From NCBI RefSeq assembly GCF_000970325.1, contig NZ_CP009518.1, forward strand, positions 1,674,001 to 1,738,000: DNA of 64,000 nucleotides, written 5' to 3'. Positions within the stretch are counted from its first letter, which is position 1, and each line of letters opens with the position of its first letter. The notes under the pieces were generated by a model, which worked only from the letters and a program-made list of their open reading frames with translations, was not told where the DNA came from and did not search any database. Shown here one piece after another: positions 1,379 to 9,596 of this stretch. Position numbers and translations under genes: made by a program. This DNA comes from Methanococcoides methylutens MM1. Lineage in GTDB: Archaea > Halobacteriota > Methanosarcinia > Methanosarcinales > Methanosarcinaceae.

Positions 1379-3796
1379 ATGAATCGTAAAGCAAAGAGCT
1401 TACTGTATGTTCTTTTTATTTCATTATTAGCTTTGACTTTATCTGTGTCAGTGGCTTCTCCAGAAGGAAGTGTAACACTATATGATGGAAATGCCCTTGA
1501 ATTTAAGACACCTCCTGATGTTGTAGCTTATGCCAATACTTTGTATTCTGAACCTCCAAACGAATTTAAGATCACAACAAGTGGGAATATTTGGCAATAT
1601 AAGCACTGGATCGCATTGACGGATCAGGGTGACTGGATCGAAGCAAAGACCGGTATTGAAACGACCACAGTAGGAGTACAGTTCTGGGGAGATATTAATG
1701 GTGGCTGGGCACGTGTTCTTGTTGATGGTGAAAAAGTATGGAGCGGGGATACCTATGGTGGTGATTCTAAGTTCCCGGAAGGTAAATTCATAAAATACCT
1801 GGAGATATCCGGCCTGGACAAAGGTTTCCATACCATAAGAGTAGAGAACATGGGTGTCAGTAGTAAGGGTGGCGGAGATGATGTGATCGTCTATTTCTTT
1901 TCTCTTATGGAACCATCTGTAGTAGAACCTGAACCAACTCCTACTCCGGAACCAACACAGGTTTCTGAGAAAGAGCTTGTTGCATACTATCCTTTTGATG
2001 GTAATGTTAAGGATTATTCCGGTAACGATAACCATGCTTTCAACGATGGTGCTACCTTTGTATCCGGAGCAAGGGAGCAGGCATTGAGTTTTGACGGCAA
2101 AGGTGATTATGTGCGTTCACCGGTCAACATAGATACGGATAACATGCCACAGATGACCATGATAGCATGGGCAAAAGCCGATGAGGTCAGGGGAACCGTC
2201 ATATCTCACGATGATGGCAACTATGACCGAACGATAGCTATAGATGATAGTGGCGACGGAGTTGGATGGTCGGCCTTCAGTGGTTCCGGTGGTGTTCTGG
2301 GATCATATCCTGTTACAACTGATGAGTGGGTTTTCCTTGCAGCGGTTTATGACCAGGACGCTGAAACAGTGACACTGTACGTAAATGACAAGGTGTACGA
2401 AGAAAAGGGGAAAATTGGCAGTGGCCGGGATTATACCATTATTGGTTCCAATCCTGAATCCGGGTTGCATTTCTCAGGTGATATTGATGAGATGAGGATA
2501 TACAATTACGCTCTTTCACAAAGTGAGATCAATTCCCTCCGTAAGGAGGTAACACCCCCTGCTCCTGAACCAATTCCTGTAGATGAGAAAGAACTTGTTG
2601 CATACTATCCTCTTGATGGCAATGTTAAGGACCATTCCGGTAACGACAACCATGGGTTCAACGATGGTGCTACCTTTGTATCCGGAGCAAGGGAGCAGGC
2701 ATTAAGTTTTGATGGAAAAGATGATTATCTTCGTTCACAGGTTAACATTAATCCGGATAATATGCCACAAATGACCATGGTTGCATGGGCCAAAGCCGAT
2801 GAGGTCAGGGGAACGGTTATCTCTCACGATGATGGCAGCTATGATCGGACAATAAGCATCGATGATAGTGGTGATGGAGTCGGCTGGTCAGCCTTTGGTG
2901 GTTCCGGCGGCATTCTGGGATCCTATCCAGTCACATCTGGAGAATGGACTTTCCTTGCAGCAGTCTATGACCAGGATGCTGAAACGGTAACACTGTACGT
3001 TAATGACAAGGTGTACGAAGAGAAAGGCAAAATTGGTAGTGGACAGGACTATACCATTATTGGTTCTAATCCGGAATCCGGTTTGCATTTCTCAGGTGAT
3101 ATCGATGAGGTAAGGATCTACAATTATGCCCTTTCGCAAAGTGAGATCGATTCCCTCCGTAAGGAAGTAGCAATTACAATTCCAGAACAAATCATCACTC
3201 AGGAACCTATAGCTGATGGATTCAACGGTTTAATTTTCGAATCCCGTAGCAAGGCAAACGGAAGCATCGTACAGATCCCCCTAACATTGAATGGAATAGG
3301 AGAAAATATCGGAAATATTGATATGACTCTGAGATATAATTCCTCTGTTCTTGCAGCTACTGAAGTTGTTAAAGGCAGTTTGACAAGCAATTCACTGCTG
3401 AATTACAATATCGTAGACAGTGCGATCAAGATCAATATTGATGATAAGGATGGATTCTCAGGTGATGGATCTGTTGCTTACGTGAGATTCAATGTGGTCG
3501 GAACTGAAGGCTCATACACTTCACTTGATATTACATCCCTATCTGCAAACAGGGTCGATCAGACTCCTTTCAATATTGCTACAAAAGATGGGATGTTCAA
3601 AGTGATCAGCCTGGAGGAAAGCAAAGGAGATGCTGTTGGTGATGGTGGTGAACTTACAGCTCTGGATGCATTATATGCACTCCAGATGTCTGTGAGAATG
3701 ATACCAGAGGATCTTGCTATGGATATGGATGGGGATGGAAGTGTAACATCAAATGACGCAAGGCTGATACTGAAAAGTTCCGTAAAATCAGACTGA
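1379..3796 (+). CDS. Secreted surface protein: two LamG domains, cohesin and dockerin
   Basis: An 805-residue exported protein. After a signal peptide (about 1-27) comes a beta-rich region (30-185) that may bind sugar. It is followed by two LamG/concanavalin-like domains (about 197-402 and 403-595, nearly identical and joined by Pro-rich linkers), a cohesin-like domain (about 617-745, VQIPLTLN ... IDMTLRYNSSVL) and a C-terminal dockerin (about 750-805). The second dockerin calcium loop, DMDGDGSVTSND, is canonical. The first, DAVGDGGELTALD, is one residue too long and lacks the third-position acid. GGGGGA stands seven bases before the start. Cohesins bind dockerins, so it could join the two proteins encoded on the opposite strand just downstream. 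Its ligand is unknown. Confidence 0.85.
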   Translation: MNRKAKSLLYVLFISLLALTLSVSVASPEGSVTLYDGNALEFKTPPDVVAYANTLYSEPPNEFKITTSGNIWQYKHWIALTDQGDWIEAKTGIETTTVGVQFWGDINGGWARVLVDGEKVWSGDTYGGDSKFPEGKFIKYLEISGLDKGFHTIRVENMGVSSKGGGDDVIVYFFSLMEPSVVEPEPTPTPEPTQVSEKELVAYYPFDGNVKDYSGNDNHAFNDGATFVSGAREQALSFDGKGDYVRSPVNIDTDNMPQMTMIAWAKADEVRGTVISHDDGNYDRTIAIDDSGDGVGWSAFSGSGGVLGSYPVTTDEWVFLAAVYDQDAETVTLYVNDKVYEEKGKIGSGRDYTIIGSNPESGLHFSGDIDEMRIYNYALSQSEINSLRKEVTPPAPEPIPVDEKELVAYYPLDGNVKDHSGNDNHGFNDGATFVSGAREQALSFDGKDDYLRSQVNINPDNMPQMTMVAWAKADEVRGTVISHDDGSYDRTISIDDSGDGVGWSAFGGSGGILGSYPVTSGEWTFLAAVYDQDAETVTLYVNDKVYEEKGKIGSGQDYTIIGSNPESGLHFSGDIDEVRIYNYALSQSEIDSLRKEVAITIPEQIITQEPIADGFNGLIFESRSKANGSIVQIPLTLNGIGENIGNIDMTLRYNSSVLAATEVVKGSLTSNSLLNYNIVDSAIKINIDDKDGFSGDGSVAYVRFNVVGTEGSYTSLDITSLSANRVDQTPFNIATKDGMFKVISLEESKGDAVGDGGELTALDALYALQMSVRMIPEDLAMDMDGDGSVTSNDARLILKSSVKSD
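1967..3165 (+). repeat. Tandem 618-bp duplication encoding the LamG domains
   Basis: The sequence starting GAGAAAGAGCTTGTTGCA at 1967 recurs at 2585 (GAGAAAGAACTTGTTGCA) and stays very similar to about 3165. The period is 618 bases, or 206 codons, so the frame is kept. Differences are mostly silent or conservative, pointing to a recent duplication or ongoing gene conversion. Confidence 0.85.
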
Positions 3797-3846
3797 AGAA
3801 TCATATCAAAAAGAGATCAAAAAAGAAAAGAAAAGAAAAGAAGGAA

Positions 3847-3884
3847 AGTGGCTTTGAAAAAGAAAAATGCCACCTGATATTTTT
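3847..3884. terminator. Terminator-like hairpin between convergent genes
   Basis: GTGGC at 3848-3852 pairs with GCCAC at 3869-3873, with an A-rich loop, and a T-run follows at 3879-3883. It is preceded by an unusual run of AAAAG repeats (about 3817-3840). It lies between the stops of two convergent genes and could serve both strands. Confidence 0.4.
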
Positions 3885-3895
3885 AGATATGTAGC

Positions 3896-4435
3896 TTATG
3901 ACCTTCTGAAAAGCATTGTGAGGAAAATCACAAAAGCAGCCATCCAGAGTTCAAACCCCGGAAGTCCTTTCTGTTCCACCGTCATGGTACCATCACTGGT
4001 ACCGACCTGAATATCGATGTACGTATTGACATCATTGGCCTGCGCACTTGTAAATGTCAGGGAACTGCTGCCAGCTTCCTCGCCCATCACATCGAAGGAC
4101 ATGACCACAAGTTCACCATCACCATTTATGCCATCCACATCCACAATTGAAATTATGATGGTACCTTCTGTTTCTGTATTGGCCTGTAACATACCGTTCG
4201 TCAGATCACCTTTTTCCACAGAACTGAAAGAGAGGACTTCAGGATCATATGTCACGACCAGATCCATGCTTCCAACATCTGCCCCGTTGGACATCATGAT
4301 TGGAACTTCAACCGAGGAACCTACTGAGGTTGTGGTGTCCGGAATATCCAGATCGATCATTTGTCCCATTGCGTTCTGGGAGAATATCAATAACAAGGAC
4401 AGAACTGCAATTGTCAAAAAACGCTTTTGTATCAT
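3896..4435 (-). CDS. Membrane-anchored cohesin protein with PGF-type C-terminal sorting signal
   Basis: A 179-residue exported protein made of a signal peptide (about 1-24), one cohesin-like domain (about 30-150, with VEVPIMMSN, GSMDLVVTYDPEVL and VDVDGINGDGELV) and a C-terminal tail. The tail has LPGFE followed by a hydrophobic stretch and RRS. This tripartite end matches the archaeosortase-processed PGF-CTERM pattern, which attaches proteins to lipid at the cell surface. It has no dockerin. Its start overlaps the stop of the upstream gene by four bases, so both are in one operon. I infer an anchor for dockerin-bearing partners. Confidence 0.82.
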   Translation of the reverse strand: MIQKRFLTIAVLSLLLIFSQNAMGQMIDLDIPDTTTSVGSSVEVPIMMSNGADVGSMDLVVTYDPEVLSFSSVEKGDLTNGMLQANTETEGTIIISIVDVDGINGDGELVVMSFDVMGEEAGSSSLTFTSAQANDVNTYIDIQVGTSDGTMTVEQKGLPGFELWMAAFVIFLTMLFRRS

Positions 4436-6249
4436 TTTAGCACCCCACTTTCCATTCTAAAACTACCTGACATACGTACAGAAGATTTCATGATCTCAAG
4501 AGAATCAAATGCAGCTACACTACCATCACCATCAATATCTGCGACGAGATCTTCAGGGATCGTGCCTATGGACATCTGCAAAGCCATTAGTGCATCCACA
4601 CTGGTTATCATACCATCCCTGTTACAATCGCCCATCACAGAACCGATGTCGAACATTCCATCAATGGTAGTAATGGAAACCGGATCCCCATCAACAGTCT
4701 TAGCACTAACACTCTCTATAACAAGTTCACTACCTGTAGCTGCTTTAGTGGTTGTAGACGTTATAGCCATTCGTTCAAATCCCGGATCAACGGAAATAGC
4801 AGTCCTGCCATCTTTACTGATAGTAGCACTTGAAGTATCAGTATCAATTATCTCAAAAATGACATTCACGAACGAGCCAGAACCACTGACACCAGCCATA
4901 TCAATGAAACCTATCCTGACAGTGCCATCCACGATATTGGATTGTACGATCGAATCCTCTGTTAGTGACCCTTTCCGTACTTCAGTTGCTCTCAGCACAC
5001 TGGAATCATAGGTCAGTACCAGATCCATACTGCCAACATTGTCTGCATTGTTCAGAGTAACGGGAATCTGAACTGTACCCGAAGGTGCTCTTGCAGAACC
5101 AAATACCATAGTCGGTCCCACAGCTTCGACACTCATGAAACTGTAGGAAGCCAGCTCATATACTTCAGATGTAGCTGCTGTTGTTGAAAGCATGAAGATC
5201 TCATAGTCGCCTCCAACATCTGACTGATAAGCTATTTTGGAACCATCATAATTGATTGATGGTAAACCATCTTCAACGCTATTATCTGTAAGTTGTAATA
5301 ATCCGCTACCATCGTAGTTAATTATATAGATCTCCCTTTCACTATCTCTTTCTCCACCCACAAAAGCTATTTTAGAACCATCGCCACTGATGCAAGGATT
5401 GCGTACGTAAATGGAATTGTCTGTAAGCTGCCGAAGTCCCGTACCATCACTGTTTATGACAAACAAACGCATGGAACGATCTCCTTCAACATATTCTTCT
5501 GAAATAAAAGCAATCCTTGAACCGTCATCACTTATGGAGGGTTCTGAGTCATAAACATCATTATCGGTCAAAGCAACGGGTCTTGAACCACCAGTATTTG
5601 ATACATAAATCTCACGTTCATTAAGGGAGAACTCAAGCCTTGATTCACCTGTTCTGCCTACAAAGACAACAGTATCACTGCCAATCACAGGAAGATAATC
5701 AACAAGATCATTGTCAGTGAGCTGCCTCTGCCCGCTTCCGTCTGTATTCATGACAAAGATCTCCTCACTTTCCTCCACAGCGGGATCAAAAGATTGATAC
5801 ACTATACTTGAAGCATCGGAATTAATTACCGGGGAAAGATCATCGATACCATGAAGAGTATATGTCAGTTGTCTTAACCCACTTCCATCAGGATTCATGC
5901 TAAATATCTCCCAATCACCGTCCAACATTGACTGGAAAACGATCTTAGAACCATCCCCGCTTATGGAAGGAAGATCTTCTTCTACAACATTGCTGGTCAG
6001 CCTTTCAACACTTGATGTCCTCACATCAATAAGCAGGATCTCTTTATCCCATTTAGTTATCTCATTCCCATCCACATCTTCAACAAAAACAACAATATTC
6101 CCACTGTTGTCTATAGACGGATAAAGATCATCAACTGTATTACTTGTCAACTGTGTCTGCGTCCAGTCAGCAGCAGATACCCCCGTTATGGAAAATGCCA
6201 TGATAACTGTTAGAACAGATATGGCAATACCCATTTTTCCCAACTTCAT
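4432..6249 (-). CDS. Secreted beta-propeller (TolB-like) protein with cohesin and dockerin
   Basis: A 605-residue exported protein. A signal peptide (about 1-27) is followed by about seven PD40/TolB-type repeats (to about residue 360; recurring patterns such as PSISGDGSKIVF and GLRQLTDN) that should fold as a beta-propeller. Then come a cohesin (about 378-535) and a C-terminal dockerin (about 540-590) with two canonical calcium loops, DCNRDGMITSVD and DIDGDGSVAAFD. The start at 6249 follows GGTGG by four bases; an ATG at 6261 is also possible. TATAAAATAATG on the minus strand near 6276-6287 is a good promoter. The stop overlaps the next gene (ATGA), an anchored cohesin. Confidence 0.86.
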   Translation of the reverse strand: MKLGKMGIAISVLTVIMAFSITGVSAADWTQTQLTSNTVDDLYPSIDNSGNIVVFVEDVDGNEITKWDKEILLIDVRTSSVERLTSNVVEEDLPSISGDGSKIVFQSMLDGDWEIFSMNPDGSGLRQLTYTLHGIDDLSPVINSDASSIVYQSFDPAVEESEEIFVMNTDGSGQRQLTDNDLVDYLPVIGSDTVVFVGRTGESRLEFSLNEREIYVSNTGGSRPVALTDNDVYDSEPSISDDGSRIAFISEEYVEGDRSMRLFVINSDGTGLRQLTDNSIYVRNPCISGDGSKIAFVGGERDSEREIYIINYDGSGLLQLTDNSVEDGLPSINYDGSKIAYQSDVGGDYEIFMLSTTAATSEVYELASYSFMSVEAVGPTMVFGSARAPSGTVQIPVTLNNADNVGSMDLVLTYDSSVLRATEVRKGSLTEDSIVQSNIVDGTVRIGFIDMAGVSGSGSFVNVIFEIIDTDTSSATISKDGRTAISVDPGFERMAITSTTTKAATGSELVIESVSAKTVDGDPVSITTIDGMFDIGSVMGDCNRDGMITSVDALMALQMSIGTIPEDLVADIDGDGSVAAFDSLEIMKSSVRMSGSFRMESGVLK

Positions 6250-6261
6250 TTTACCACCCAT

Positions 6262-7377: not shown

Positions 7378-9132
7378 ATGAAAATCTTTAATTTAATATT
7401 TATATTGATATTAATTGCAGGATTAACGGGAACTGGATCAGCTAATTATTCTGTTTCAGCTGCTGATAATCCAGAAGCACTCGTTATTGAGATCGCACAA
7501 CAACTAGAAACCACAATGAACGAAGATGGAATATGGTATGAAGGAGCAGACGATCGTCTTGGACTCCTATATATAATCTCGAACCGTCATGAGTTCAAGG
7601 ATGAAATGAGATCTCTGGATTACTGGTCCATGGAAGACCATTTAATAATAGGAGAATTCCCAGGACAGGTTGTATCAAGTTCTGCCGAGATCACAGCACC
7701 GGGACCAGACGGGAAAACTATCTACGTAATTGTAGACGGTTACAACCTCCCGACAGAAGAGATCCGGCCAGTCTCTGAATGGGTATTCAATGAACTTGTA
7801 AGACTTTCTTTGGAAAGTGGAGCTATCGGAGAAGACAGTGCTCTAAATGATGAAACTTACTCATCAGAAGCTGATGACATATCAGAAGCTCCTACATACG
7901 AGGAAGATGATATTGTTGACGTTCCTGATCCTGTGGAAACCACAGACTATGAAATCGTTGATGATACCCCTACAGAAGAAGATGTACCTCCGGAACCTGT
8001 GGATGAGACAGAACTCGACATTGCTGATATCGAATATTTCCTGGATATACTTGAAGAAGAGAATGAGATCGAGGTCAAAGGTACAGTCGAGACTGATGAG
8101 ATATCAAAAGAAGATGTACTGCAATATCAGGAAATAATGGTCAATTATGTACTTGACGAAGAATTCATGGATGAAATTGACTCCTATAGCATAGGTGTTA
8201 ATACATTGAGAATGGGATTCGAATATGAAGGAAACCTCCACTCCTCGGGAATTGATATATCTGAGGAACAGGAACCTGAGATGAACAGAGATCTCATAAG
8301 GGCAACATTTGAAGATGATTTTTCGATTGGTGAGGACGGAGAAGTATCCCTTATACGTGATGAAAGATATTCCGGAGAAGATAAAGTAGCATCAAAAGTA
8401 AATGAAATACTCGAGAAGGGAAAACTTTCAAAGGCGGATAAGGACTTTATAAATAATGTTAAAACTGGACACCAGGCTGCTTCTTTCTTTTCAGATGATT
8501 ACAAAGATACCGGGTTTGCCAAAACGATAGATAAAGTTGACAAACTGAACAGTGTAGCTGAAACGATCGAGGAATCTAAGCAGGTCTATGACAATACTAA
8601 AAAACTGAGCCAGCTAAAGGGAGCAGGTGGCACAACTGCAAAGGCGATCTATACCGTTTCAAAGGTAGGACAGAAAGTCGGAGAAAAGGTCCCTATTGTA
8701 GGAAGTCTCATAAAGACAGGTTCTGAGATAGTTGAAAAGACTGTTATGCTTATGCCAGAAATCGATGATGCAGTTTCCAACAGTGATTTCAGACAGGGAA
8801 GGATAACAAGTGGAGGGCATGGGTCAAAAACTCCACAGGCATTCCTCCATAATTATGGGGAAAGGACCGAAACCAGTAATGGTGTCGATTATAAATTCAA
8901 ATACAAGGATGAGAACGGAAAAGATGAGACCATTTCTCCCACCTTCTGGGTCAAGTCTACTATAAAAGGCAAGACATATTACATACCCACCGACGAATGG
9001 GAAAATCCAATTGCTGATGTGGCTATCATGGATACTGATTCCTGGAAGCCATGGACATGGGACAACTGTCAGGTTGTGAAGTTTTCCAATCCTTCTGTTG
9101 TGTATAATGACGGAGAGGTGTATGACTTATGA
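7378..9132 (+). CDS. Large secreted acidic protein, function unknown
   Basis: A 584-residue exported protein with a signal peptide (about 1-28). It has an N-terminal globular region (about 30-150), a linker very rich in Asp, Glu, Pro and Thr (about 155-225), a second acidic region (to about 345), an Ala/Lys-rich region of predicted helices (350-480) and a C-terminal beta-rich part with many aromatic residues. I recognise no family. There is no ribosome site; TATATATAG at 7347-7355 lies about 24-31 bases before the ATG, so the mRNA is probably leaderless. The stop overlaps the next gene by four bases, implying joint action. Confidence 0.75.
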   Translation: MKIFNLIFILILIAGLTGTGSANYSVSAADNPEALVIEIAQQLETTMNEDGIWYEGADDRLGLLYIISNRHEFKDEMRSLDYWSMEDHLIIGEFPGQVVSSSAEITAPGPDGKTIYVIVDGYNLPTEEIRPVSEWVFNELVRLSLESGAIGEDSALNDETYSSEADDISEAPTYEEDDIVDVPDPVETTDYEIVDDTPTEEDVPPEPVDETELDIADIEYFLDILEEENEIEVKGTVETDEISKEDVLQYQEIMVNYVLDEEFMDEIDSYSIGVNTLRMGFEYEGNLHSSGIDISEEQEPEMNRDLIRATFEDDFSIGEDGEVSLIRDERYSGEDKVASKVNEILEKGKLSKADKDFINNVKTGHQAASFFSDDYKDTGFAKTIDKVDKLNSVAETIEESKQVYDNTKKLSQLKGAGGTTAKAIYTVSKVGQKVGEKVPIVGSLIKTGSEIVEKTVMLMPEIDDAVSNSDFRQGRITSGGHGSKTPQAFLHNYGERTETSNGVDYKFKYKDENGKDETISPTFWVKSTIKGKTYYIPTDEWENPIADVAIMDTDSWKPWTWDNCQVVKFSNPSVVYNDGEVYDL

Positions 9133-9596
9133 TTAAGAAAATAATTGCAGGCGTATTTATCCTGTTCATACTGCTTCTTTTTATGGGAGGAGATGATGGC
9201 GGAAATACGCCTACTGATATTGACATAACCGAATGGAAACCTGTTATGGAAGGAACTGACAGAGAATACCAGGCCCAGAGCATGGGAATCTATGAAACCC
9301 TTGCATTCAGTGGTTTTGAAAAAGCAAGTGTAAAAGTAACCGATGAATATGTGCTTATGGCCTATGAACAACCGCCGGTACATTCTGAAGTGGATGCTCT
9401 GCTATCCTGGTTCTATATGATGGGAGCAGCAGCAGAACTGGCACCTCATACGGAACAGACAATCATTCGAATGTACTCAGATGATGTGGCTCTCTACGAG
9501 ATAGAAGCATATACATCAGATGTGCAAGAGATCCTTGATTATGAAATGGAACTCGATGAATTCCGTTCAAGGGTTACTGTCAGAGCCCTTATGTGA
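9129..9596 (+). CDS. Small exported or membrane-anchored protein, partner of the upstream gene
   Basis: A 155-residue protein with an N-terminal hydrophobic segment (about 3-20, IIAGVFILFILLLFMGG) that is either an uncleaved anchor or a signal peptide. It is followed by an acidic soluble domain. No Cys is present, so it is not a lipoprotein. Its ATG overlaps the stop of the 584-residue secreted protein (ATGA), so the two are translated together. I do not recognise the family. Both probably act outside the membrane. Confidence 0.72.
   Translation: MIKKIIAGVFILFILLLFMGGDDGGNTPTDIDITEWKPVMEGTDREYQAQSMGIYETLAFSGFEKASVKVTDEYVLMAYEQPPVHSEVDALLSWFYMMGAAAELAPHTEQTIIRMYSDDVALYEIEAYTSDVQEILDYEMELDEFRSRVTVRALM

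Follow-up and report, generated by a model that had tools for sequence, protein, structure and literature searches.

What cohesin and dockerin modules do in archaea, where cellulose degradation does not account for them, has been an open question since their discovery in Archaeoglobus fulgidus. In that species the ORF2375 dockerin is reported to bind the ORF2376 cohesin strongly and specifically (AfuDoc75-AfuCoh76; PMC9705933), and accounts of anaerobic methanotrophic (ANME) archaea and other Methanosarcinales focus, where they discuss these modules, on scaffoldins with several cohesins and on binding proteins that carry dockerins (Chadwick et al. 2022, PMC9012536; PMC5244752). Here we analyze a 64,000-nucleotide stretch (hereafter, the window) of the single-contig, 2.39 Mb genome of Methanococcoides methylutens MM1 (NZ_CP009518.1, positions 1,674,001 to 1,738,000), in which three neighboring genes, designated P1, P2 and P3, encode cohesin-bearing proteins. 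Judged by their sequences, P3 and P2 are homologs of AF2375 and AF2376 in architecture, order and overlap. We consider it probable that they constitute a coupled operon that encodes a surface complex of the same, non-cellulosomal kind, in which P3 docks on anchored P2 and short chains can form; P1 may join these or use a second anchor.

A sequence-only reading of the window had proposed cohesin modules in all three proteins, and these proved genuine. Matches to PF00963 exceed the 24.1-bit cut-off in P1 (45.4 bits), P2 (57.6 bits) and P3 (53.6 bits), and the best solved relative by sequence is in each case the A. fulgidus cohesin 2XDH. The P2 assignment is made from these two matches, while the P1 and P3 cohesins were also compared as AlphaFold2 models. 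The P1 cohesin (predicted local distance difference test (pLDDT) ~88-93) retrieves 2XDH at Foldseek rank 1, with a template-modeling (TM) score of 0.87, normalized by 2XDH, and a root-mean-square deviation of 2.0, and several bacterial cohesins are also among its fold matches. The P3 cohesin core (pLDDT ~90-95) matches 2XDH with a TM score of 0.83, likewise normalized by 2XDH, and the A. fulgidus cohesin has an insertion at the same place as the low-confidence P3 residues 475-506. Dockerins had also been predicted at the ends of P1 and P3. The P3 dockerin matches PF00404 at 25.4 bits, above the 22.9-bit cut-off, and has two canonical calcium loops; the P1 dockerin stays below that cut-off at 13.1 bits, has a canonical second loop (DMDGDGSVTSND) and is modeled with a pLDDT of ~80-87. 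The remaining domain assignments were recovered as well: Laminin_G_3 (LamG) matches P1 in two stretches (131 bits), and the P3 propeller is detected through PD40 (80.7 bits) and, by Foldseek, through fold matches to oligogalacturonate-lyase and TolB propellers.

The P3 and P2 genes share a 4-bp ATGA overlap of stop and start codons, in agreement with the operon that had been suggested for them. The coordinates given for the three open reading frames (ORFs) were reproduced; the P3 frame extends to 6261, and the start previously placed at 6249 is plausible because that inner ATG is preceded by GGTGG. A phylum-wide search with 2XDH identified a genome with a sequence 99% identical to it (G216, taken here as A. 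fulgidus), in which adjacent overlapping ORFs encode a propeller-cohesin-dockerin protein and then a cohesin with a PGFE tail. P3 shares 32% identity with AF2375 (425 aligned columns) and 31% with another Archaeoglobi homolog (607 aligned columns, E 1e-77), and P2 shares 40% with AF2376 (185 aligned columns). With a predicted signal peptide, one cohesin and a tail composed of LPGFE, a hydrophobic, putatively transmembrane stretch and RRS, P2 has no dockerin and is probably a cell-surface anchor, as had been anticipated. The AF2376 tail aligns with that of P2, and the genome contains a gene for archaeosortase A (287 bits).

In the complex that we favor, P2 would be exported, remain attached to the cell surface through a C-terminal PGF/transmembrane tail, probably processed by archaeosortase A, and present one cohesin. 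P3 would be exported free, and its C-terminal dockerin would plug into the P2 cohesin with calcium. Once docked, P3 would display its beta-propeller, while its own cohesin would serve as a second socket, which a further dockerin protein, either P1 or another P3, could occupy, giving rise to short chains; the propeller and LamG domains may in turn bind ligands. The earlier idea that a cohesin-dockerin protein can plug in and offer a new socket is supported, and A. fulgidus provides an experimental precedent for the P3-P2 pair. In the original A. fulgidus binding paper a single dockerin reportedly bound both cohesins, which would be a precedent for chain growth, and chains beyond P2-P3 are here possible, if unproven. 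P1 may join such P2/P3 chains; it is no less likely to dock on a second anchor, encoded at another locus of the genome.

The P3-P2 arrangement is one instance of an order that recurs around P2-like genes in Archaeoglobi, Methanosarcinaceae and ANME-1. One to three genes for X-cohesin-dockerin proteins (extenders), in which X is LamG, a propeller, FG-GAP repeats or others, precede a cohesin-anchor gene (~171-216 amino acids (aa)), which is followed in many loci by a dockerin-only gene (~190-225 aa). Carriers named by a contig search with the anchor alignment include Methanococcoides, Methanolobus, a Methanosarcinaceae metagenome-assembled genome and Methanophagales/ANME-1. A same-strand extender lies directly upstream of 26 of 29 anchor genes (gap of -44 to +31 nt) and a dockerin-only gene directly downstream of 18 of the 29, counts that describe loci partly picked for their cassette look and are not unbiased rates. 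Full-length relatives of P1 sit directly upstream of a Methanosarcinaceae-type anchor, and P1 itself is, by its sequence affinities, a LamG extender of the Methanosarcinaceae cassette, whose anchor type usually adjoins directly downstream. The sequence-only reading had suggested searching the rest of the Methanosarcinaceae for this set of genes; the cassette is indeed common there, but full-length P3 was found in none of the 111 other genomes (0/111), which gave domain-level matches only, and a scan of genome contigs with P3 returned no match.

In a profile search against solved structures, the third protein of the cassette, encoded by the dockerin-only gene, was matched essentially through its dockerin alone. 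Two dockerin-less paralogs of this protein occur in the M. methylutens genome (G000:C1:611952-612407, L085 5923-6411; G000:C1:515134-515622, L086 6117-6692). Both keep the N- and C-terminal halves and lack the dockerin between them, suggesting that the dockerin of their relatives is nested in a small secreted domain with no Pfam family. In ANME-1/Methanophagales, extender-type and anchor-type cohesins are found fused in one frame (L125 4931-6874, L127 5078-5722; G331, G190), and no dockerin was recognized in these fused ORFs.

Across the family, cohesins and dockerins co-occur strongly and beyond chance. A cohesin is present in 68 and a dockerin in 62 of 112 Methanosarcinaceae genomes (both, 57; cohesin only, 11; dockerin only, 5; neither, 39; Fisher p ~1.5e-14, phylogeny not corrected). 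In the loci examined, subtype C1 cohesins are fused to a 'DALxALQM' type of dockerin and 'NILD' dockerins appear only with other cohesins, so that, by sequence type, cohesin and dockerin subtypes co-segregate. The M. methylutens genome contains seven cohesin and three dockerin Pfam matches, in addition to the weak P1 dockerin. Four of these cohesins belong to subtypes C1 and C2 (P1, P2, P3 and one at G000:C1:1306288), and the other three form part of a separate cohesin group, where the observed dockerins belong to the 'NILD' type.

Cohesin trees separate the C1 (extender) and C2 (anchor) cohesins into distinct clades. The P1 cohesin groups with those of LamG extenders from the same genus and family, whereas the P2 cohesin groups with Archaeoglobi anchors (support 98/91 and 98/93). 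The P3 cohesin falls outside the clade of family extenders that holds P1 (100/99; the C1 tree took in 36 C1 proteins) and near Archaeoglobi extenders (88/77 and 96/80 in two trees). The cohesin at G000:C1:1306288 (L012) groups with the Methanosarcinaceae anchors and is the family-type anchor of this genome. On this phylogenetic evidence, P1 and P2-P3 are different branches of one system, and the treatment of the three genes as a single unit in the sequence-only reading is not supported as it stands: P1 is convergent, lies outside the operon and by sequence is a member of the Methanosarcinaceae cassette, while P2 and P3 group with or near Archaeoglobi.

Several observations weigh against a P3-P2 surface complex of the AF2375/AF2376 kind. 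P2 and P3 form long branches (0.6-0.8), and an approximately unbiased (AU) test does not reject a grouping of P2 with the Methanosarcinaceae anchors (p 0.185). The PGF-CTERM hidden Markov model TIGR04126 does not call the P2 tail, in which the motif was seen by eye. Calcium loop 1 of the P1 dockerin is atypical, with one extra residue (GDAVGDGGELTALD), and the selection of the anchor loci described above belongs here too. Finally, cohesin and dockerin are contiguous in both P1 and P3, so that closed or in-cis pairing is conceivable. The loop-1 insertion is not a sequencing slip, since four full-length P1 relatives from other genomes share it. Because the AU test keeps the alternative placement of P2, the origin of the P3-P2 pair is left open and we refer to the pair as Archaeoglobi-like. 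Its horizontal transfer from Archaeoglobi was considered and not adopted, given this AU result and the less firm placement of P3. Base composition gave no signal either way on the origin of the pair, and a scan of viral contigs returned no matches, hence no sign of phage origin.

A rival reading is that the window holds two complexes side by side, an Archaeoglobi-like P3-P2 complex and a P1 that docks on the Methanosarcinaceae-type anchor at G000:C1:1306288, as neighbors and not as one complex. We regard this as a serious contender, at somewhat less than even chances. It is favored by the position of P1 on the strand opposite to P3-P2, by the location of its full-length relatives directly upstream of an anchor type that this genome also encodes, and by the affinities of P2 and P3 described above. 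However, the dockerins of P1 and P3 share 58% identity, as much as those of P3 and AF2375, and cross-binding is therefore plausible. Moreover, the 2,685 bases immediately upstream of the second anchor gene (L012 4747-7431; G000:C1 ~1306746-1309430) are masked; relatives carry an extender at this position, and a second P1-like partner could be hidden there.

Self-pairing would instead have the contiguous cohesin and dockerin of one or two P3 (or P1) molecules satisfy each other, which would yield monomers or closed dimers and leave neither chain nor free socket. Although this is geometrically conceivable, since the 36 C1 proteins of the tree carry both modules side by side at the C-terminus or close to it, a dockerin-less anchor gene directly follows in most loci, which is sensible only with dockerins available in trans, and the downstream dockerin-only genes also need a free socket; we consider closed pairing unlikely. 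A use of cohesin-like and EF-hand-like folds for adhesion or calcium-dependent stiffening, with no cohesin-dockerin recognition, would fit a literature that describes archaeal cohesin and dockerin function as unclear, but appears very improbable in view of the co-segregation of subtypes and of the strong, specific binding of the A. fulgidus homologs reported in PMC9705933.

The system is already known in kind, and it is the ordered anchor/extender/cap operon that deserves attention. A conserved operon in which socket-anchor, socket-and-plug and plug-only genes stand in a set order provides a concrete, testable model, namely anchored chains displaying adhesive domains; the cassette is common to methanogens, ANME-1 and Archaeoglobi, and Methanococcoides is an organism in which the model can be tested. 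More speculatively, and with the balance of probability against it, the locus could represent one outlying version of a surface-polymer kit that is widespread in archaea. Through ordered genes for extender, anchor (cohesin with a membrane tail, the chain start) and cap (a small, secreted dockerin-only protein, the chain end), Archaeoglobi, Methanosarcinaceae and ANME-1 would build controlled surface chains showing interchangeable propellers and lectin-like domains, and this genome would mix two lineages of the kit, without a recognizable cap.

Features of the P1, P2 and P3 genes and their products (window coordinates; residues refer to each protein)
Feature	Position	Strand	Basis
P1, exported LamG-LamG-cohesin-dockerin protein, 805 aa	1379..3796	+	ORF, Pfam
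P1 N-terminal beta-rich domain, residues ~30-178	1466..1912	+	Modeled beta strands, low-to-middling confidence
P1 LamG/ConA-like domain 1, residues ~200-389	1976..2545	+	PF13385; ConA-like folds (Foldseek)
P1 LamG/ConA-like domain 2, residues ~404-595	2588..3163	+	PF13385, two stretches
P1 cohesin, residues 615-743, subtype C1	3221..3607	+	PF00963, model, tree
P1 dockerin, residues 743-805	3605..3793	+	Sub-threshold in Pfam
P2, cohesin anchor protein, 179 aa	3896..4435	-	ORF; PF00963
P2 C-terminal PGF-CTERM-like anchor (putative), residues ~159-179	3899..3961	-	PGFE motif, hydrophobic helix, basic tail
P2 cohesin, residues 26-154, subtype C2	3974..4360	-	Pfam, sequence match to 2XDH, tree
P2 signal peptide (predicted), residues ~1-24	4364..4435	-	Hydrophobic N-terminus by sequence
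P3/P2 ATGA stop/start overlap, 4 bp	4432..4435	-	ORFs
P3, exported propeller-cohesin-dockerin protein, 609 aa, likely start 6249	4432..6261	-	ORF, homology
P3 dockerin, residues ~543-598	4468..4635	-	PF00404
P3 cohesin, residues 383-540, subtype C1	4642..5115	-	Pfam, model, 2XDH match
P3 low-confidence insertion inside cohesin, residues 475-506	4744..4839	-	pLDDT <50; 2XDH alignment
P3 beta-propeller, residues ~34-360	5182..6162	-	PD40 repeats; Foldseek

P1 shares 70% identity with a Methanococcoides homolog along its entire length, and its N-terminal domain matched no family in the Pfam scan. Fold matches of its LamG region to clostridial neurotoxin binding domains, with weak PF07953 matches in P1 relatives, reflect the common ConA-like lectin fold, and no observation here points to a toxin. 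A tRNA-Leu (CAG) gene lies upstream of P1 (996-1085, + strand). Near P3, two overlapping + strand genes (7378-9132 and 9129-9596) encode proteins of 584 and 155 aa, neither of which matched a Pfam or NCBIfam family above cut-off.

Compared with bacterial cellulosomes, the window shares the type I-like cohesin fold and the division between a cohesin protein that is anchored and proteins that carry dockerins, but has a putative archaeal PGF/transmembrane anchor in place of S-layer homology (SLH) or sortase anchoring. No enzyme domain for plant polysaccharides and no multi-cohesin scaffoldin was recognized in the window. Single cohesins only, and no catalytic Pfam family above cut-off, were found in the three window proteins, and none of the seven cohesin matches of this genome belongs to a multi-cohesin protein. 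The ANME and Methanosarcinales systems resemble the window in their extracellular, non-cellulolytic use of cohesins and dockerins, for which the parts of these accounts that concern the modules propose surface display and partner contact (PMC9012536; PMC5244752), and ANME-1 contigs carry the same cassette. The window differs from them in its single-cohesin proteins and in the anchor/extender/cap order, which those parts of the accounts do not describe (PMC9012536; PMC5244752). Within one Methanosarcinaceae group (g10; L063-L069), scaffoldin-like proteins of ~640-785 aa contain three cohesins each, and a ~500-aa single-cohesin protein with a PGF-CTERM-like tail is encoded on the same strand, ~4.3 kb from the scaffoldin-like gene.

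The closest counterpart is the AF2375/AF2376 system (O30295/O30294; 2XDH). Unlike it, the window includes a third, convergent LamG gene (P1) of another branch, and the M. methylutens genome encodes a second anchor elsewhere. P3-P2 and AF2375/AF2376 agree in gene order, in their location on the same strand and in the overlap of their ORFs, with a propeller-cohesin-dockerin gene followed by a cohesin gene with a PGFE tail; the AF2375-type cohesin insertion recurs in P3, and the whole proteins are ~31-40% identical and the dockerins 58%.

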